Shown piece after piece: positions 5,955 through 36,392 of a stretch of DNA of 48,426 bases. The translations under genes and the position numbers were made by a program. The notes under the pieces were generated by a model. It was not told the DNA's origin and made no database searches. It was given only the letters and a program-made list of their open reading frames with translations. This DNA is from Brasilonema sp. UFV-L1 (GTDB lineage Bacteria > Cyanobacteriota > Cyanobacteriia > Cyanobacteriales > Nostocaceae). Position 1 is the stretch's first letter. Each line of letters begins with the position of its first letter. Location: contig NZ_QMEA01000036.1 in assembly GCF_012912105.1 (NCBI RefSeq), forward strand, positions 1 to 48,426, given 5' to 3'.

Positions 5955-6040
5955 TGAGTTGCGGTTGATATGAGTTATCAGTTATCAGCTATCAGTTGTT
6001 AACTGTTCACTGTTTACTGTTCACTGTTCATTGTTTGGAT
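5955..6040. repeat. Heptamer repeats (STRR) in the rbcX-rbcS spacer
   Basis: Units of the type AGTTATC and ACTGTTC recur in near-tandem (ATCAGTTATCAGCTATCAG, then CTGTTCACTGTTTACTG). Such short tandemly repeated sequences are typical of heterocystous cyanobacteria. Here they separate two genes of one operon and reach into the rbcX stop region. Confidence 0.7.
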
Positions 6041-16149: not shown

Positions 16150-16376
16150 TTGAACAATCAATTATCAATTATCAATTGTCAATTATCAGTGATCAGTGAT
16201 CAGTGATCAGTTATCAGTTATCAAGGAAGCGCAGTATCAGTTGTCAGTTGTCAGTTGTCAGTTGTCAGTTGTCAAGCAGATTTTTTGTTCTTTGTTTACT
16301 GTTCACTAGTCACTGGTCACTGGTCACTGGTCACTGTTCACTGTTTACTGATAATTGTTCATTGTTCATTGATTCT
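16150..16376. repeat. Large heptamer (STRR) array
   Basis: Successive runs of related heptamers fill about 225 bp: CAATTAT, CAGTGAT, CAGTTGT (about five copies near 16235-16275) and then CACTGGT and CATTGTT. The right part is partly the reverse complement of the left (for instance CAATTATCAA against TTGATAATTG-like sequence), so the region could fold on itself. It lies between the export-protein stop and the hydrolase start. Confidence 0.8.
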
Positions 16377-25515: not shown

Positions 25516-26097
25516 ATGTTTAAAACACCAAAGGAAGCATCTTCTCATTTTGGAGTCTGCTTACACACACTCAGACGCTGGGAAAAAGCAGGAATCATTA
25601 AAGCAATTAGGACGCCATCAGGTCAGCGACGATATGACATCACGAGCTACACGGGCATATCAACAAACGGAGGAAGCAGGGCAATTATCATTTATGCCCG
25701 TGTTTCAAGCCGTGGACAAAAAGCAGACCTTGATAGACAGATTGCTGTCCTTAAAAACCTCTACCCAGACTCAGAACTTATCACAGACGTTGCCTCCGGA
25801 CTCAACTTTAAAAGACCGGGACTTAAAGCCCTTTTGGGACGAGTGCGTGAAGGCGATGTCGGACTTGTTGTGGTTGCCCACCGTGACCGACTCGCCCGTT
25901 TTGGGTTTGACCTCATTAAGTGGTTTATCGAACAAGACAACGCAAAACTCCTGGTTCTCAACCAAGACAACTTTTCTCCAGAGCGAGAGATGGTTGAGGA
26001 CATTCTTGCCATTGTCCACGTCTTTTCGTGTCGATTGTACGGATTGCGAAAATACAAGGCTGCAATCAAAGAAGATCAGGATTTATCCAGAGCCTGA
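25516..26097 (+). CDS. tnpA: IS607 TnpA, serine recombinase
   Basis: Moves the element by serine-recombinase chemistry. The 193-residue protein has a MerR-like helix-turn-helix (EASSHFGVCLHTLRRWEKAG, residues 7-26) and a resolvase catalytic domain starting with IIIYARVSSRGQKADLDRQI, with the nucleophile Ser in RVSS (about residue 64). VAHRDRLARFGFDLI supplies the arginines of the active site. It appears intact. Its 3' end overlaps the tnpB frame. Confidence 0.93.
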   Translation: MFKTPKEASSHFGVCLHTLRRWEKAGIIKAIRTPSGQRRYDITSYTGISTNGGSRAIIIYARVSSRGQKADLDRQIAVLKNLYPDSELITDVASGLNFKRPGLKALLGRVREGDVGLVVVAHRDRLARFGFDLIKWFIEQDNAKLLVLNQDNFSPEREMVEDILAIVHVFSCRLYGLRKYKAAIKEDQDLSRA

Positions 26098-27199
26098 GTT
26101 GCATAAAGTCTGGAAGAAATGGTTGGCAGCGTGCAGGTATTGTTTCAACCAAGCAATATCAATACAGCGTAACTCAAAGACAAAAATAGGAAAGCTTAAG
26201 CTGAGAAACATGGTGATGCAATCTGACTTACCCGATTGGGTTAAACAAGTGCCATGCCATATTAAACAAAACGCTGTCTTTGACGCTCATCAAGCTTATT
26301 CTGCTAGCCGAGATGCCAGGTTCCGCTCTGTTCGCAACCCACAACAAACTATTAAGTTCAATAACTCAAACTTTGCTAATGGAAAGTGGTATTACAACAA
26401 AACAAAGAAACTAAACTTTGTCGCGAGTGAACCAATACCAACAAGTTGTGAGCATGGGACTCAACTAATCTATAAGCGTGGTGCGTGGTTTGCAGTGTTT
26501 CCAGAACCCATGCAAAGAAACGATTCTGGGTCTAACAAATTAATCGCACTAGATCCAGGTGTAAGAAGTTTTTTGACTGGGTATGACGGGGACAAGGTAA
26601 TAGAGATAGGCAGTCGAGATATGGGAGGAATCTCCCGATTATGTCAACACCTAGATAATTTGATTAGTCGCTCAAGTAAAGTTAATTCAAAACGTCGTCG
26701 AGTCATGCGACGTGCGGCTAATAGACTGCGGAGCAAGATACAGAATTTAGTTAATGAAGTTCACAAAAAGACAGCATATTATCTAACTAGTGAATATCGT
26801 GTCATATTCCTTCCTTATTTCGAGTCTTCCCAAATGGTAGCCAAATCTGGAAGAAAGATACGGTCAAAAACAGTTAGAAGTATGTTAAGTTGGGCGCATT
26901 ACCAATTCAAATTAACCATAAAACATCAAGCATCAAAGCGTGGTAGCGTGGTGATTGATGTGAGCGAAGCGCATACATCCAAGACCTGTGGTGTATGTGG
27001 TCATCGACATGCAAAACTTGGTGGAAATAAAATTCACAAATGTCCAAATTGTGGAACCCAAACACTAAGAGATGCAAACGGCGCACGTAATATTATGTTA
27101 CGTGCTTTGAGGGATACCTCCTTTACTGTCAATCAAGATGGTATTGCTATCGTTTCATTTGGTTCATTGTTAAACAATGTTCAAAAATGTTCAGCGTAA
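26006..27199 (+). CDS. tnpB: IS607 TnpB, RNA-guided nuclease
   Basis: TnpB is the ancestor-type of Cas12 and cuts DNA guided by an RNA from the element's right end, helping to retain the IS. Recognisable sequence starts at about 26070 (KIRIYPEPELHKVWKKWLAA). The RuvC residues are all present: D in ALDPGVRSFLTGYD, E in IFLPYFESSQM, and the last D in RDANGARNIMLRAL. The zinc finger CGVCGHRH...CPNCG is intact. The start is unsure: no ATG lies at the right place, so a TTG at 26006 or a CTG at 26060, coupled to tnpA, is chosen. The open frame also runs back to 25550, but that part is antiframe to tnpA. Confidence 0.85.
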   Translation: MPLSTSFRVDCTDCENTRLQSKKIRIYPEPELHKVWKKWLAACRYCFNQAISIQRNSKTKIGKLKLRNMVMQSDLPDWVKQVPCHIKQNAVFDAHQAYSASRDARFRSVRNPQQTIKFNNSNFANGKWYYNKTKKLNFVASEPIPTSCEHGTQLIYKRGAWFAVFPEPMQRNDSGSNKLIALDPGVRSFLTGYDGDKVIEIGSRDMGGISRLCQHLDNLISRSSKVNSKRRRVMRRAANRLRSKIQNLVNEVHKKTAYYLTSEYRVIFLPYFESSQMVAKSGRKIRSKTVRSMLSWAHYQFKLTIKHQASKRGSVVIDVSEAHTSKTCGVCGHRHAKLGGNKIHKCPNCGTQTLRDANGARNIMLRALRDTSFTVNQDGIAIVSFGSLLNNVQKCSA

Positions 27200-28533: not shown

Positions 28534-30690
28534 TTACCGATTGACTGCTGCTGCTTCTCGCGCTGCTGCTGCTTGCTCTGGGTGAATACCTAGGCGGGTA
28601 AGATTAATTCTGCCTTTGTTATCGATTTCCCGGACTTTCACAATCACTTCATCGCCAACTGCGACTTCATCCTCAACTTTGCCAACACGGTAGTCAGCCA
28701 GCTGCGAAATGTGGATCATTCCTTCTTTACCAGGAAGAAATTCTACAAATGCACCTATCGGTATAATTCTTGTTACACGACCTACGTAAACATCACCTTC
28801 ATTGAGCTTCCTTGTCATGCCTTGGATAATATTCCGTGCCTTTTTCGCCTTGTTTTCATCCACAGCGGAAATCGTCACGGTGCCATCATCTTCAATGTCA
28901 ATTTTAGCACCTGTTTCTTCAGTGATACCCTTAATCGTTTTGCCTCCAGGTCCGATAACTAGACCAATCATGTCTGGATCAATCCGGATAGTCAACAGAC
29001 GTGGGGCATAAGGTGACATTTCGGCGCGTGGTTGATCAATTGTCTGAAGCATTTTCTCCAGAATGTGCAACCGTGCGGCTTTGGCCTGGTTGATGGCTTG
29101 GGAAATAACATTTAAGGACAGACCGGAAATTTTCATATCCATTTGCAGGGCGGTAATGCCTTTATCCGTCCCAGCAACTTTAAAGTCCATATCGCCCAAA
29201 AAGTCTTCTATACCCTGAATATCAGTCAGGACTCTGATTTCGTCGCCTTCTTTAATCAGACCCATTGCAGCACCACTGACGGGTTTGGAAATGGGTACGC
29301 CTGCATCCATCAATGCCAGTGTCGAACCACATACTGAACCCATTGAGGTGGAACCGTTAGAAGAAAGCACTTCCGATACCACCCGAATCACGTAGGGGAA
29401 TACTTCTTTGGGCGGAAGCACAGGTAAGAGTGCTCTTTCTGCTAGTGCCCCGTGACCGATTTCCCGACGTCCTGGGGCACGTAAGGGTTTTGTTTCCCCA
29501 ACAGAGAACGGAGGGAAATTGTAATGGTGCAGGTAGCGCTTTGCCTGATCCGTTTGCAGATCATCAGCGAGTGATTGAGCATCTCCTGGTGTACCCAGAG
29601 TACAAGCGGATAAGACCTGAGTTAATCCCCGGTTGAATAAACCACTACCGTGGACTCGTTTTGGTAAAATGCTCACGTCACAAGACACAGGACGTACTTC
29701 ATCAAGCTTGCGACCGTCAACGCGAACGTTATCTTCAATGATTTGACGGCGCATGAGCTTTTTGGTAAGCTCTTTGAAGGTATTATCTACAGCTTTACTG
29801 TTTTGTGAAGCAGCAACGCGAATAGGGTCTTCTTCTGAGAGTTCGGCGATCGCAACTTCAACTGATTCCTTGACTGCATCTAAAGCCGTATCACGCTGTG
29901 TTTTGTCGAAATCAAATTGTGACAGAATCTTCTTAATTTCAACAGCCGCGCGATCGCTTATGTAATTTTCCAGCGTCGAGTCTACCTCTGGTGCCTCCTG
30001 TACTGGAATTTCCAGACCAATTTCAGCAATGAAATCTTGCTGCGCCCTAATTAAGTCCTGTACAGCTTCGTAGCCAAATTCAATTGCTTCGATAATGTCT
30101 CTCTCTGACAGTTGATTTGCTCCTGCTTCCACCATGATCACACCTTCTGGTGAACCGGCAACTATCAAATCCAGATCTCCAGCTTCAATTTCTGCGTAGG
30201 TGGGGTTAATGATAAAGTCATCTCCCACCAGACCAACACGAACTGCGGCCATCGGTCCGTTAAATGGTATCTTAGCCATAATGGTAGCTATCGAAGCACC
30301 TGTGACTGCTAGCACATCAGGTGGTACCAACTCATCCATTGAGAGTGTGAAGGCAACAATTTGCAGGTCGTCTCGCAACCAAGACGGGAACAAAGGACGT
30401 AATGGACGGTCAATTAAACGGCTAGTCAGAGTTGCTTTTTCTGGAGGACGACCTTCTCGCCGCAATAACCCTCCGGGAATTCTACCTGCCGCATATAGTC
30501 TTTCTTCGTAATCTACTGTCAAAGGAAGAAAATCGATGCCTTCTCTGGCTTGTGAACGCGTAGCCGTCACCAAAACTGCTGTGTCCCCAGATTCTATCAA
30601 CACTGAACCACCAGCCTGGGGAGCTAGATGGCCAACCTTCAGTCGAATATCCCGTCCGTCAAAGGATATTGACTTCTCAAATTCTCCCAT
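28534..30690 (-). CDS. pnp: Polyribonucleotide nucleotidyltransferase (PNPase)
   Basis: A phosphorolytic 3'-5' exoribonuclease that also makes heteropolymeric tails in cyanobacteria. The 718-residue protein contains two RNase PH domains (about 1-230 and 310-540), the second with [17 protein letters not shown] and [23 protein letters not shown] domain follows with [16 protein letters not shown], then an S1 domain with [20 protein letters not shown]. Length is normal. The upstream 800 bp to the helicase is non-coding. Confidence 0.98.
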
Positions 30691-30886
30691 TCAGTTTTTT
30701 TTCCTTCTATGCACGCTATTCTCTCTCTGTGGCAATCCTAACATTTATGCCCTATGGCTGGCGTCAGTGACGGAAAAGAACTCACCAAGTCAGTTGTCAG
30801 AATATGCCTTACGTATACGCTATGCAAACAGAATGTATCTAAATTCTATATGATTTGTGAATGAGTCAGCCGGTTCGGTGTCCCCT

Positions 30887-30926
30887 GTTTTTATTTAGAT
30901 CCCGTTTTTAAGGACGGGGTCTAAAT
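30887..30926. repeat. Palindromic repeat, first copy
   Basis: TTATTTAGA-TCCCGT pairs with ACGGGG-TCTAAATAA through a centre TTTTAAGG, giving a near-continuous stem with G-U pairs. The core CCCGT-TTTTAAGG-ACGGGG is a variant of the CCCCGTCCTTAAGGACGGGG palindrome in the intein. Confidence 0.7.
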
Positions 30927-31027
30927 AAGAAGAACACAGAACGCAGAACGCAGAACACAGAATATGCCCAAAGGATAAATTTGGGAATTTCATAAACAAA
31001 GAATTTTTTTGGTCTCCATAATGAAGT

Positions 31028-31060
31028 CCCTGTCCTTAAGGACGGGGTCTAAATTAGGGG
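31028..31060. repeat. Palindromic repeat, second copy
   Basis: CCCTGTCCTTAAGGACGGGG followed by TCTAAATTAG is the same element with one mismatch in the left arm. It lies about 430 bp before the helicase start. Confidence 0.7.
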
Positions 31061-31174
31061 CTTGTGCTTTCTAACTGTGTAACCCAGTTGCACGGAGTTT
31101 GGCTGGCTATCAATTGGTGCTTATAGTTAATTCTAAGTTCTGCAAATATGCTGCGCAAACAGAAGAAAAAACGG

Positions 31175-31275
31175 TATAATGAGAAGCTATTAAGAATAAG
31201 AAAAAAATCTGTACAATTGGGTGGAGAGTAAAAGGTAACAGTCCCTCCACCAAAATACGAAGCTTTGGTGAATCA
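31175..31275 (+). promoter_or_regulatory. Candidate promoter and leader hairpins before the helicase gene
   Basis: TATAAT at 31175-31180 is a perfect -10 hexamer, although the -35 is weak. Downstream, GGTGGAG (31220-31226) can pair with CTCCACC (31245-31251), while CACCAAA (31248-31254) can pair with TTTGGTG (31264-31270). The two stems share bases and exclude each other. The arrangement looks like an attenuator or switch, but no known riboswitch class is recognised. Confidence 0.35.
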
Positions 31276-31490
31276 GCACTGTAGTCCTTGTTTCCCGCGC
31301 TAGATGGCTTTTTGTGAAATGGTCAACAATTAGATGGTGGTTTGAATCCCTACCAAATTGCACTCTGAGTTGCTGAGTTGGTGAATTCTTCTTCAAGAAC
31401 ATGAAAAAATAAAATAATCTAAGTTAGTTCCGAAATGAGAAAATAAACCTTTAAAAACTTAAATTTCACAAAGCTCTGAGTAGTTATTAA

Positions 31491-34400
31491 ATGGCAATTT
31501 TACACGGTAGTTGGTTAATAGAAAGTCAAGACTGTTTATTTGTTTGGGGAGAGACCTGGCGAACTCTTGGAACAAATTCTAGTAAAAGTTCATTGAACGA
31601 TGTGTCAATACATCCTCTAGCAATGACACCATTAGAATTAGTCAAGTGGTTGCATTCACGTAACATTACAATTGCGAGAATGCCACAAACAAAACATGTA
31701 GAGACATTGCATATAACCTCAAGACAAAATGGGAAAATGCGCAAAACAGCCACCGCTGCCGATGTGAGTTTGCCAACCCACTCCCAAATTGTTGCTCTAC
31801 CAACTCATATTTTGGAAAATACTGACGAGGGAGCAGTTAAAAATTTTCCAGCCCATTCTGCCACATTTGATTCACTAAATCAAACTCCGCAGTATTTGCA
31901 ACCGTGGGTTGTCGAAGGTTTTTGCCTCAATCCCGAACAGGCAATACAATTCTTGACTTCGTTACCTCTAAATGTGACTAATGAAGAAGATAGTTTTTTG
32001 GGAGGAGATTTACGCTTTTGGGTGCAGGTTGCCCGCTGGAGTTTAGATTTAATATCGCGCAGTAAGTTTTTGCCTATTATTCAAAGGCAACCAGATTATT
32101 CCGTAGTCGCCAAATGGCAAGCACTTCTTGATAGCGCCCAAGATGGGACTCGTTTAGAAAAATTTTCTCAATTGATGCCATTAGCTTGTCGAACTTATCA
32201 AGGCAATGGGGGAAGTGAGAAAGATAAGGGAGATGAGGGAGAAAACAATTCAAAATCGCGTAGCGTCCTGAGTGTTTGCGCAGCGCCTCCAAAGGGGCTA
32301 GCGAAGGATCTAATTCAAAATTCAAAATTAGGAGTTTCTTCCTCATCCTCCTCATATCCTCACATAAACTTACCGCTCGAACCTCAAGAATTACTGCTGG
32401 GATTTCTTAACAGTACGATAGATGCCCAAATACGAGCAATGGTGGGTTCCAAACCTGTGCTGGAAACCAGAGTGATGACGTCTTTACCAGCGACGGTGCG
32501 CCAGTGGTTGCATTCTCTGACGGCTACCTCTAACACAGTCAATACCGACGATCCGTTTGGAGTAGAACGATTAGAGGCGGTGCTGAAAGCTTGGACTATG
32601 CCTTTGCAATACCAAATAGGAACGAAAAACCAGTTTCGTACTTGTTTTGTGTTGCGTTCAAAAGAATCAGCAGGGGAAACTAATTGGACTTTAGCTTATT
32701 TCCTCCAAGCAGCTGATGACCCAAATTTTATAGTGGATGCGACAACGATTTGGAACCATCCTTTAGAAAAATTTGTTTATCAAAATCGAACAATTGAACA
32801 ACCGCAAGAGACTTTTTTACGAGGTTTGGGATTGGCTTCACGATTGTATCCACCAATCGCAGCCAGTTTAGAAACTCCATATCCTCAATCTTGCCATCTC
32901 AACCCAATTCAGGCTTATGAATTTATCAAGTCTGTGGCGTGGCGGTTTGAAGATAATGGTTTGGGTATTGTTTTACCTCCTAGTTTGGCAAACCGCGACG
33001 GCTGGGCGAATCGTTTGGGTTTGAAAATTACTGCCCAAACCTCAAACAAAAAGCAGGAACGCTTGGGTTTACAAAGTCTGTTGAATTTTAAGTGGGAATT
33101 GGCGATTGGTGGACAGACTATTTCCAAAGCAGAATTTGATCGGCTGGTGGCGCTTAATAGTCCATTGGTAGAAATTAATGGCGAATGGGTGGAATTGCGA
33201 TCGCAAGACATCAAGACAGCACAAACCTTTTTTGCTTCTCGCAAAGAACAAATGGCGCTGTCTTTGGAAGATGCTTTGCGTATCAGTACAGGAGACACCC
33301 AGACTGTTGAAAAATTACCAGTGGTTAGCTTTGAGGCGTCTGGGGCTTTACAAGAATTAATATCTGCCCTGACGAATAACAAAGCAGTCGAACCCTTGCC
33401 CATACCCACTAGTTTCCAGGGAAAATTGCGACCTTATCAAGAACGTGGGATGGCGTGGCTTTCGTTTTTGGAACGTTGGGGCTTGGGTGCATGTCTGGCG
33501 GACGATATGGGTCTCGGTAAGTGCCTAGTAAATGATACATTAGTATACGTAAACGGAGGACTACGCACAGCAGAAGAAATTTGGCAGACCTATGCCGGAG
33601 AAACAGAGTTTGATGGCGAGGGATTCTGGGCTGACCCCACTGAGAAATTACTCGCGAATTCTATAGATGAGGAAACTGGTAAAATTGTACAAGCCCCGAT
33701 TCGGCAATTGTATCGACAACAAGTTTGCGAGAAATTGCGAAAGGTCACGCTACAAGACGGTAGCAGTATCACCATCACTCGTCGTCACAAACTGCTGACA
33801 AGCAAGGGTTGGACAAATGAGCTAAAGGTGGGTGATTATGTCTGTGTGCCTGCCAAAATGCTTTGGGAAGGTCAACCAGAAGACCCTGATTTGGTCAAGT
33901 TTCTTGCTTGGCAGATTGCTGAGGGAAATGAACCACTTGAGCATTTGGGGTCTGTTCGCATATCTCAGAAAGACAAACAAAGGTTGCAAGACTTGCTAGA
34001 AACGTTCCAGCGTATAGGTGAACGGTATAATCTTAAGCTCAATCGACCTGTTGTCTGTCCTTATAGTAAAAGAGATTACTATCAGCTTGTGGCACATAGC
34101 AAAGCCTACCGACTTTTCTTGGAAGCTAAAGGGTATAAATGGGGCAAACTGTCAGCAGAAAAATCTATTCCGCCCTTTATTATGCAGGCAGACTTGGATA
34201 CTGTACGGATATTTTTACAGAACTACTTCGATGCTGAGTCTGCTGTCGTTTCTAGTATGCGGAGTATCGAGATTGCCACAGCTTCACCGCAATTGATTCA
34301 GCAACTTTCTACATTACTGCGACGCTTTGGTATTTGGTTACGAATATCGCCCAAGCAGAAGTGTGCTACTAATGGAACTCGTACTTTACGCACTTATTAT

Positions 34401-36392
34401 ATCGGTGTAATTGGAGGAAATTCTGCCCGGAGATTTTTGCAAGAAATTGGGTATGGCATTCCAGAAAAACAGGGGAAGTTAGAAGAAATTTGTCAACGGG
34501 AGAGCAATACAAATGTTGAGGGAATTCCTGCTTCTGATATTGTTGCCCAAACAGTCACAGCAACGGGGTTACCTTTGCGGCATTTTGGAATGCACAACAC
34601 GGTTTACATTAATGGTTCACAGCAATTTTCTAGGAATAGCTTGCAGCAAGTTATAGCTGGGATGAACCGTATTATAGGGATAAACCCCGTCCTTAAGGAC
34701 GGGGTATTCGTTATAGGGATAAACCCCGTCCTTAAGGACGGGGTATTCGTTATAGGGATAAACCCCGTCCTTAAGGACGGGGTATTCGTTATTAGTGGAG
34801 AAGCCCAACAGGAGTATCAGTTACTAAAAGCTTCTAAATGGACAACTCAAACACTTGAAGCTTATGCTCGCTTAGATGTAGAACAGTTAAGCTTAACACG
34901 GCAATCTGTGCAACATCTTCTCGACCAGGAAGTTTTCTATTGCAAAATTGAAAGCATAGAGGATGTCGAGTATGAAGGTTGGGTTTATGACTTTGAAGTG
35001 AGTGAGCATCATAATTTTGTTGCTAACAATATTATTTGCCATAACACCATCCAATTCATCGCCTTCCTCTTACACCTAAAAGAACAGGAAACACTAGAAA
35101 AACCAACACTGCTTGTTTGTCCAACTTCAGTTTTAGGAAACTGGGAAAGGGAAGTCAAGAAATTTGCCCCAACACTGAAAGTTCTCCAATATCACGGTGA
35201 CAAGCGCCCTAAAGGTAAAGCGTTTGTAGAAGCAGCAAACAAGCATGATATCGTCATCACTAGCTACTCGCTCATTCACCGCGATGTCAAAACCTTGCAG
35301 GGCGTTTCTTGGCAAATTGTTGTTTTAGATGAAGCACAGAATGTCAAAAATTCAGAAGCCAAACAGTCACAGGCTGTCAGGCAAATAGAATCTACATTTC
35401 GGATTGCCCTCACAGGAACACCCGTAGAAAATAGACTGCAAGAACTCTGGTCGATTTTAGATTTTCTCAATCCTGGGTATTTAGGAAATCGGCAATTTTT
35501 CCAGAGACGTTTTGCGATACCAATTGAAAAGTATGGTGATGCTGCTTCGTTGAATCAATTGCGTTCCTTAGTTCAACCTTTTATTCTGCGTCGCCTGAAA
35601 ACTGACCGTGAAATAATTCAAGACTTGCCAGAAAAGCAAGAGATGACTGTATTTTGTGGTCTGAGTGCTCAACAAGCTCAACTGTATCAAAGAGTGGTGG
35701 AAGAATCTCTGGCTGAGATTGAAGAAGCTGAGGGATTGCAACGCAGAGGAATGATTTTAGCTTTACTTGTGAAACTAAAACAAATCTGCAATCACCCATC
35801 GCACTATTTGAAGCAAGACACATTGGAACAACATCATTCTGGAAAACTTCAGCGTTTACAGGAAATGTTGGAAATGGTGATAGATGGTGGCGATCGCGCT
35901 CTAATTTTCACTCAGTTTGCAGAGTGGGGTAAGTTACTCAAACCATATCTGGAAAAACAAATAGGTCGAGAAACATTGTTCTTATACGGTAGTACTCAGA
36001 AAAAACAACGTGAGGAAATGGTAGACCGTTTCCAACACGACCCCCAAGGACCACCAATTATGATTTTGTCGCTGAAAGCAGGTGGCGTAGGATTGAATCT
36101 CACACGGGCAAATCATGTTTTTCACTTTGACAGATGGTGGAACCCAGCAGTAGAAAATCAGGCAACAGACAGAGTATTTCGTATTGGTCAAACGCGCAAT
36201 GTGCAAGTCCATAAATTTGTTTGTACTGGGACTTTAGAAGAGAAAATTAACGACATGATTGAAAGTAAGAAACAACTTGCTGAACAAGTCGTTGGTGCGG
36301 GTGAAGATTGGCTAACTGAAATGGATACAGACCAACTCCGCAACTTATTAATACTTGACCGTAGTGCAGTTATAGAAGAGGAAACAGAATGA
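31491..36392 (+). CDS. SNF2-family DNA helicase/translocase with an intein
   Basis: A 1633-residue precursor that, after splicing, gives about 1125 residues. The N-terminal 640 residues are the domain common to bacterial SNF2 helicases. The Walker A region CLADDMGLGK ends at residue 677, and the Thr that completes GLGKT is residue 1186; the 508 residues between are the intein. The extein continues with PTLLVCPTSVLGNWEREVKK, the Walker B VLDEAQNVKNSEAK, RIALTGTPVENRL and the helicase C domain with FDRWWNPAVENQATDRVFRI. It overlaps the SWIM gene by 4 bp (ATGA). A low-complexity insert sits at about residues 240-285. Function in repair or chromatin-like remodelling is inferred from the family. 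Confidence 0.93.
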   Translation: MAILHGSWLIESQDCLFVWGETWRTLGTNSSKSSLNDVSIHPLAMTPLELVKWLHSRNITIARMPQTKHVETLHITSRQNGKMRKTATAADVSLPTHSQIVALPTHILENTDEGAVKNFPAHSATFDSLNQTPQYLQPWVVEGFCLNPEQAIQFLTSLPLNVTNEEDSFLGGDLRFWVQVARWSLDLISRSKFLPIIQRQPDYSVVAKWQALLDSAQDGTRLEKFSQLMPLACRTYQGNGGSEKDKGDEGENNSKSRSVLSVCAAPPKGLAKDLIQNSKLGVSSSSSSYPHINLPLEPQELLLGFLNSTIDAQIRAMVGSKPVLETRVMTSLPATVRQWLHSLTATSNTVNTDDPFGVERLEAVLKAWTMPLQYQIGTKNQFRTCFVLRSKESAGETNWTLAYFLQAADDPNFIVDATTIWNHPLEKFVYQNRTIEQPQETFLRGLGLASRLYPPIAASLETPYPQSCHLNPIQAYEFIKSVAWRFEDNGLGIVLPPSLANRDGWANRLGLKITAQTSNKKQERLGLQSLLNFKWELAIGGQTISKAEFDRLVALNSPLVEINGEWVELRSQDIKTAQTFFASRKEQMALSLEDALRISTGDTQTVEKLPVVSFEASGALQELISALTNNKAVEPLPIPTSFQGKLRPYQERGMAWLSFLERWGLGACLADDMGLGKCLVNDTLVYVNGGLRTAEEIWQTYAGETEFDGEGFWADPTEKLLANSIDEETGKIVQAPIRQLYRQQVCEKLRKVTLQDGSSITITRRHKLLTSKGWTNELKVGDYVCVPAKMLWEGQPEDPDLVKFLAWQIAEGNEPLEHLGSVRISQKDKQRLQDLLETFQRIGERYNLKLNRPVVCPYSKRDYYQLVAHSKAYRLFLEAKGYKWGKLSAEKSIPPFIMQADLDTVRIFLQNYFDAESAVVSSMRSIEIATASPQLIQQLSTLLRRFGIWLRISPKQKCATNGTRTLRTYYIGVIGGNSARRFLQEIGYGIPEKQGKLEEICQRESNTNVEGIPASDIVAQTVTATGLPLRHFGMHNTVYINGSQQFSRNSLQQVIAGMNRIIGINPVLKDGVFVIGINPVLKDGVFVIGINPVLKDGVFVISGEAQQEYQLLKASKWTTQTLEAYARLDVEQLSLTRQSVQHLLDQEVFYCKIESIEDVEYEGWVYDFEVSEHHNFVANNIICHNTIQFIAFLLHLKEQETLEKPTLLVCPTSVLGNWEREVKKFAPTLKVLQYHGDKRPKGKAFVEAANKHDIVITSYSLIHRDVKTLQGVSWQIVVLDEAQNVKNSEAKQSQAVRQIESTFRIALTGTPVENRLQELWSILDFLNPGYLGNRQFFQRRFAIPIEKYGDAASLNQLRSLVQPFILRRLKTDREIIQDLPEKQEMTVFCGLSAQQAQLYQRVVEESLAEIEEAEGLQRRGMILALLVKLKQICNHPSHYLKQDTLEQHHSGKLQRLQEMLEMVIDGGDRALIFTQFAEWGKLLKPYLEKQIGRETLFLYGSTQKKQREEMVDRFQHDPQGPPIMILSLKAGGVGLNLTRANHVFHFDRWWNPAVENQATDRVFRIGQTRNVQVHKFVCTGTLEEKINDMIESKKQLAEQVVGAGEDWLTEMDTDQLRNLLILDRSAVIEEETE
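32204..32345 (+). repeat. Repeat-derived in-frame insert in the helicase extein
   Basis: The coding sequence here carries a GGGAGATGAGGGAG-like run, TTCAAAAT repeats and the palindromic piece GCAGCGCCTCCAAAGGGGCT. It encodes a Ser/Lys/Gly/Asp-rich loop of about 45 residues unlike the rest of the domain. Similar repeat pieces occur at 43950 and 19820. Confidence 0.6.
33522..35045 (+). other. Intein in the SNF2 helicase (residues 678-1185)
   Basis: The insert begins with Cys (CLVNDTLVYVNGG, block A) and ends with VANNIICHN followed by Thr, the standard intein ends. RRHKLLTSKGW is block B. Two LAGLIDADG-like segments of a homing endonuclease are present, FLAWQIAEGN (residues 804-813) and FLQNYFDAES (908-917). 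YEGWVYDFEVSEHHNFVANN is the C-terminal splicing region. The frame is open throughout and 508 codons long. Inteins at this Walker A site of SNF2 are known in some cyanobacteria (Trichodesmium, from memory). Confidence 0.93.
34672..34788 (+). repeat. Three in-frame copies of a 39-bp palindromic unit
   Basis: The 39-bp unit begins TTATAGGGATAAACCCCGTC and occurs at 34672-34710, 34711-34749 and 34750-34788, apparently identical. Each contains the perfect palindrome CCCCGTCCTTAAGGACGGGG. Translated in the intein frame it reads IGINPVLKDGVFV three times. It lies after the endonuclease part and before the C-terminal splicing region. The same core palindrome is at 30895 and 31030. Confidence 0.95.

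Follow-up and report, generated by a model that had tools for sequence, protein, structure and literature searches.

How did three identical 39-bp units, each built around a palindrome, come to lie in frame inside the intein of a helicase gene in the cyanobacterium Brasilonema sp. UFV-L1? An earlier note on this locus had suggested that a dispersed element inserted into the intein and was later duplicated there, and that its length reflects selection for splicing. We followed up this proposal in the window (the whole stretch of DNA analysed, 48,426 nucleotides, from a draft assembly of 8.3 Mb in 337 contigs) and in related genomes. The units are quite likely copies of a tiny dispersed hairpin mobile element of filamentous cyanobacteria that was gained at a TTAT site and tripled locally, and its features suggest a Y1 transposase as the likeliest means of mobility. 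The host of the units consists of two nested features:

31491 to 36392, + strand: SNF2-family helicase gene, interrupted in frame by an intein (1633-aa open reading frame; SNF2-rel_dom 3e-75, DUF3670, Helicase_C)
33522 to 35045, + strand: intein of 508 aa, DMGLGK/C...CHN/T, with a LAGLIDADG endonuclease domain (Pfam: Intein_splicing 1.2e-22, LAGLIDADG_3 1.6e-14)

The intein insertion point is the helicase Walker A motif (DMGLGK/T), and intein residues C1, T86, H89, H507, and N508 are present here and invariant across 45 sequences. The residue that follows N508 is Thr, in agreement with the expectation of a downstream Cys, Ser, or Thr. Judged by its sequence, the product is a LAGLIDADG-type intein that is encoded in one open frame and has its splicing residues intact. 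Structure prediction gave a model with a mean pLDDT of 82, and comparison of this model with solved structures returned intein endonucleases as the top matches, with the TliVMA intein (7qss) first (E 1.2e-21) and PI-PfuI (1dq3) third. Relatives of the intein with 57-63% identity over the best segment (L181-L183, L185-L187, L195, and L198) come from MAGs titled Methanosarcinales, ANME-2, Methanophagales, Chloracidobacterium, and Oscillochloris, which is a possible sign of broad horizontal transfer.

Within the intein, positions 34672-34788 hold the three units, which are translated in the same 1633-aa frame as IGINPVLKDGVFV three times over, just as the earlier note had described. Tandem Repeats Finder reports the array with a period of 39, 3.1 copies, and 100% matches. 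The units, their palindromes, and two relatives elsewhere in the window are as follows:

34672 to 34710, + strand: unit 1, TTAT-AGGGATAAA-palindrome-TATTCG (repeat detection in the sequence)
34711 to 34749, + strand: unit 2, identical to unit 1 (repeat detection in the sequence)
34750 to 34788, + strand: unit 3, identical to unit 1 (repeat detection in the sequence)
34789 to 34792, + strand: closing TTAT, which forms the junction pair with the TTAT at 34672-34675 (the nearest orthologue has a single TTAT in its empty site)
34685 to 34704, no strand assigned: perfect 20-bp palindrome of unit 1, CCCCGTCCTTAAGGACGGGG (pattern search)
34724 to 34743, no strand assigned: perfect palindrome of unit 2 (pattern search)
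34763 to 34782, no strand assigned: perfect palindrome of unit 3 (pattern search)
30900 to 30919, + strand: intergenic imperfect relative with 3 mismatches (pattern search; flanks TTTAGA..TCTAAA)
31028 to 31047, + strand: intergenic imperfect relative with 1 mismatch (pattern search; flanks TGAAGT..TCTAAA)

Each unit is made of 35 bp plus a TTAT, so that the distance from one TTAT to the next is 39 bp and every unit contributes 13 codons. That each unit carries the perfect palindrome (at 34685, 34724, and 34763) had been noticed before, though not with these positions. The same palindrome had also been claimed at 30895 and 31030, but the sequences at those places are the imperfect relatives at 30900 and 31028, and their flanks are unlike the flanks of the intein copies. 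With up to three mismatches allowed, the palindrome has five matches in the window, against which 100 shuffles average 0.00 matches. As single-stranded DNA, one unit is predicted to fold at -10.7 kcal/mol (z -3.4), a stronger hairpin than that of shuffled sequences. A search of 30600-35100 against Rfam gave 12 matches, every one below the gathering score. The intein copies were also considered as intrinsic terminators; their stem-loops pass a loose rule, but the tail ATTCGTTATA contains no T-run and the candidate was set aside.

Comparison with inteins at the same site provides the evidence for insertion. A search of 59 genomes recovered eight full-length orthologous inteins in other genomes, and all eight lack exactly these 39 codons; the search also recovered two natural mini-inteins at the SNF2 site with no endonuclease segment, one of 213 aa (L034, genome G028) and one of 221 aa (L035, genome G017). 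A wider scan of a collection with one genome per species found 56 loci, from which a pattern extracted 43 full inteins and dropped 13. The units are present in none of the 43, a set that overlaps with the eight orthologues and has several records in common with it; 41 show a plain gap, and two (L192 and L194) also lack the surrounding segment. The closest intein relative within the genus belongs to genome G002. In the nearest orthologue the empty site reads ATT ATT and contains a single TTAT, and the filled site has a TTAT at each edge. Because the units are absent from all compared inteins and the element is present elsewhere in the genome, they are, with near certainty, an insertion of a dispersed hairpin element, and this part of the earlier proposal is borne out.

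The element is indeed scattered well beyond the intein. The genome of the window contains 20 copies of the palindrome with up to three mismatches, eight of them exact, and a reversed-pattern control found no match. The exact palindrome occurs in four of the seven genomes of the genus and, across the family, in 15 of 217 genomes and 10 of 56 genera, with the most copies in G103 (13) and G118 (11). The distribution across the family is patchy. Two exact palindromes also appear (L265, at 880 and 4641) on a 10.9-kb contig from a viral collection. Copies that were fetched with their surroundings fall into at least two flank types. Among 17 copies with flanks of the intein type, a set picked by a motif written after the copies had been seen and containing the window's own three units as well as two loci that look orthologous (L013 and L023), the left edge is TTAT in 13 and near-TTAT in the other four; the background nearby is 0.006 per position. 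A clean comparison comes from a copy in genome G003 that lies outside any long open reading frame (L014). Its empty allele in genome G001 (L212) lacks exactly 42 bp directly 3' of TTAT, and the filled and empty alleles leave room for a target duplication of at most 1 bp. This 42-bp element is itself nested in another repeat (L014:1430-1581), and the two halves of that repeat (query 181-248 and 290-332) recur at dozens of sites across the genus. A genus-wide search for an empty site of L005 matched, besides L005, only the element itself and one 47-bp stretch.

Other protein genes have taken up the palindrome in frame as well. A PEP-synthase-like gene of G001 (PPDK_N and PEP-utilizers domains) carries exactly 39 bp, or 13 extra codons (KEDPVLKDGVYIY), in frame; the insert is absent in six of six congeneric orthologues, and its junction is ATAA, which is TTAT on the opposite strand. 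Four TnpB-like frames (L022, L106, L107, and L132) likewise contain the palindrome in frame. The frames of L132 and L107 are longer than their nearest relatives by only 6 and 8 residues, with a few residues changed, and that of L106 had no close relative among the sequences compared. In L107 the frame runs for 296 aa from the ATG and stops before the TnpB-like stretch does, and this gene is probably broken further on. In the tnpB of L022 and L069, a second copy of the element at the 3' end supplies the stop codon; the L069 copy has no TTAT at its junction when compared with related copies. A further frame that holds the element (L121) looks Hsp70-like by eye. The palindromic insert has been kept in frame in an intein, a PEP-synthase-like gene, and TnpB-like frames, and the event in the intein is not a one-off but recurs in a gene of a sister genome.

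What the reading frame says about selection is a separate matter. When the 39-bp unit is read in all six ways, three frames are free of stops. Since the insertion is 39 bp long by nature and half of its frames are open, an in-frame event is an ordinary outcome for this element, and the frame alone is therefore no proof of selection for splicing. The tripling, too, keeps the frame by simple arithmetic because the unit length is 39. The earlier argument from length to selection for splicing is consequently not established, as the same insertion size of 39 bp recurs in the PEP-synthase-like gene. The necessary part that selection must play is to purge those insertions that harm the protein. Across the intein as a whole, dN/dS against four relatives is 0.12-0.17, which indicates purifying selection, though the measure does not single out the period since the insertion; such selection is what one would expect if the host gene still depends on splicing. 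The site itself appears accommodating. In the model, the insert has a pLDDT of about 30 and lies between helices 371-385 and 427-433, and the corresponding position adjoins the endonuclease deletion in the mini-intein of G028 and is itself deleted in that of G017. From the model and the mini-inteins the insertion site looks tolerant; it falls at a joint within the C-terminal portion of the endonuclease region, in line with the earlier suggestion of a tolerated site. A more ambitious idea is that there exists a family of frame-neutral selfish hairpins that insert in multiples of three, have half of their frames open, and so spread through coding DNA with little damage. The insertions are 39 or 42 bp and the tandem units 39, 42, or 30 bp, and the few cases outside long open reading frames are also multiples of three (42 bp in L014, 42 bp in L016, and 30 bp in L135). 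Such lengths outside open reading frames would suggest that what has been selected is the element itself rather than the individual host proteins. We regard this idea as doubtful for now.

The multiplication of the inserted unit can be read in more than one way. One copy probably entered and then became three in place, whether through slippage, through recombination among the 39-bp repeats, or by re-insertion behind a new TTAT. Local duplication after a single insertion is the simplest course because the units are identical and the other fetched copies differ in their flanks; re-insertion is possible too because a TTAT follows each unit. Tandem pairs are also found elsewhere, with 42-bp units in genome G006 (L016) and 30-bp units in the window's own genome (L135), where the near copies at L135:1769-1818 are accompanied by two further copies within about 0.8 kb. 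The window also has arrays of 7-bp repeats at 5969-6036 and 16157-16368, a type that is common in filamentous cyanobacteria. The copy number of three comes from the assembly, and short tandem repeats within a 337-contig draft could be miscounted, in which case the strain would have another number of units. We consider such an assembly error very unlikely given that local multiplication recurs in the L016 and L135 pairs and that the 117-bp array is shorter than the usual sequencing read; the existence of the insertion is, in any event, independent of the unit count. It is more improbable still that the repeats belong to the intein natively or through co-option, for instance as a linker selected for control of the endonuclease or of splicing. 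They do encode a regular peptide and keep the frame, as a native segment would, yet they are absent in all compared inteins, their core is the same as that found in unrelated proteins and outside long open reading frames, and the segment is predicted at very low confidence.

The insertion and local tripling of a dispersed hairpin element lead to the question of how the element moves. In the mechanism that we suggest, a Y1 (HUH) transposase of an IS200/IS605-type element would act in trans on the single-stranded hairpin, which would be inserted 3' of TTAT, as is supposed for palindrome-associated (ends-only) elements; comparison with the empty site shows that the intein gene did gain the element at a TTAT, with 13 codons per unit and no shift in frame. 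The odds of this route are about even, and it is favored because of the hairpin, the TTAT site, and a partial likeness to an IS605 left-end hairpin. A candidate source of the enzyme is at hand, as Y1_Tnp (PF01797) matches occur in all seven genomes of the genus, including 12 in the window's own. TTAT stands at the junction in the three clean filled/empty comparisons (the intein, the PEP-synthase-like gene, and L014/L212), with L069 as the exception. The hunt for a parent IS covered 37 loci (32 fetched tnpA loci and five IS605 loci). In one IS605 group of the genus, the left-end hairpins (AAACCCCGTCCTTCTAGGACGGC in L072) match the element with scores of 12.5-16.5, where the control maximum over 38 stretches is 10.5. 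Altogether, 13 of the 37 tnpA/tnpB loci exceed the control maximum, a count that includes the element's own L069 copy and one IS twice (L072 and L240). The lowest score in the IS605 group (L070, 12.5) is not distinctive because L235 and L243, which have no such left end, also reach 12.5. Among the 37 loci, a clearly related left-end hairpin is confined to the one IS605 group, whose right-end hairpin differs by eye, and the search turned up no complete IS that carries this hairpin at its two ends. Genomes G004 and G005 have a left-end-like hairpin and no exact palindrome, which counts against the Y1 route, as do the L069 junction and the two cases with TTAT at either edge, for which a 4-bp duplication would serve equally well. 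A TnpB-like stretch lies near the element at six of 58 loci, none of which is the intein locus, as set against about 1% of stretches expected by our own estimate (25 tnpB matches per 8.3 Mb at a stricter cut-off) in place of a formal null. At L022 the tnpB stops inside the palindrome, which raised the possibility that the palindrome forms an IS605 right end; this was rejected as four other copies of that tnpB have no palindrome. In the window itself, a TnpB-like gene of 549 aa with a Cas12f1-like TNB domain lies at 25550-27199, with the nearest copy of the palindrome about 3.7 kb away.

Two other routes have to be set beside the Y1 transposase. The element could be a classical MITE for which a DDE transposase makes a 4-bp TTAT target-site duplication. 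TTAT does flank the insertion on either side in both the intein and the PEP-synthase-like gene, the core flanks of L012 pair in part, and the arms can be read as short inverted repeats. Yet the clean 42-bp empty site of L014/L212 has a duplication of at most 1 bp, and the left edge, with its 13 copies at TTAT and four at near-TTAT, does not present the varied target set of such an element; this explanation strikes us as rather unlikely. The other route starts from the small dispersed repeats (SDR) of Nostoc and relatives, which are of a similar size class to the element. They come from a similar lineage and are cited as very small mobile repeats of cyanobacteria (PMC4390886, PMC3116915), and if the element were one of them, its spread would be unconnected with IS200/IS605 and would follow an RNA-based or unknown route. 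The strict TTAT site and the partial likeness to the IS605 left-end hairpin speak against this assignment, which we judge unlikely.

Whatever the enzyme, the hairpin seems to be a tiny selfish DNA that is able to lengthen proteins without breaking them. With its empty sites it offers a clear natural example of how a very small hairpin element can lengthen proteins, by 13 codons with every unit, and this in a lineage distant from Rickettsia; in the intein, one selfish element sits inside another. The helicase intein and the PEP-synthase-like enzyme each have filled and empty alleles within a single genus, which makes the cost of insertion directly measurable. Should the hairpin be moved by a Y1 transposase, it would count as a very small substrate for enzymes of this class.

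Several known systems come close to what is found here. The host intein is predicted to have the same fold as LAGLIDADG inteins of the TliVMA/PI-PfuI type, which do not have the 39 element-derived residues. Elements of the IS200/IS605 group insert 3' of a tetra- or pentanucleotide, use hairpins, and make no target duplication, and hairpin-bearing inserts inside IS605 tnpB (Halanaerobium) and an ends-only element have been described (PMC7290912). The ends-only elements (PATE) resemble ours in the hairpin, in insertion 3' of a fixed tetra- or pentanucleotide, and in the supposed mobilization by TnpA in trans, and differ in that here there is one hairpin only and no parent IS with the same ends among the 37 loci. 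REP sequences with their RAYT are short palindromes tied to IS200/IS605-type transposases in several bacteria, some of them inside open reading frames (PMC3733652). In contrast to the GTAG- or CGTC-tagged REP, the flanks of our element show by eye no GTAG or CGTC at the unpaired end, and CGTC lies inside the stem. Closest in behavior are the Rickettsia palindromic elements (RPE), dispersed palindromic DNA of about 105-150 bp that lies in frame in unrelated protein genes and adds a recognizable peptide (PMC2229807, PMC10969869). The cyanobacterial element is likewise a palindromic insert in frame in unrelated protein genes, but it measures 35 bp plus TTAT, belongs to cyanobacteria, and prefers a 4-bp site. 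These RPE and REP papers (PMC2229807, PMC10969869, and PMC3733652) make no mention of inteins. In the open-access literature, no paper was found for the exact core or three shorter pieces, and no report was found of such an element, or of a palindromic in-frame insert, in an intein; a paper that came up for an element nested in an intein deals with a fungus. The earlier note had called the arrangement unusual, which holds for an intein within that literature and does not hold for proteins generally, since in-frame palindromic elements are known in Rickettsia. The kind of element is already familiar from the Rickettsia palindromic elements, and it is the setting that is new.
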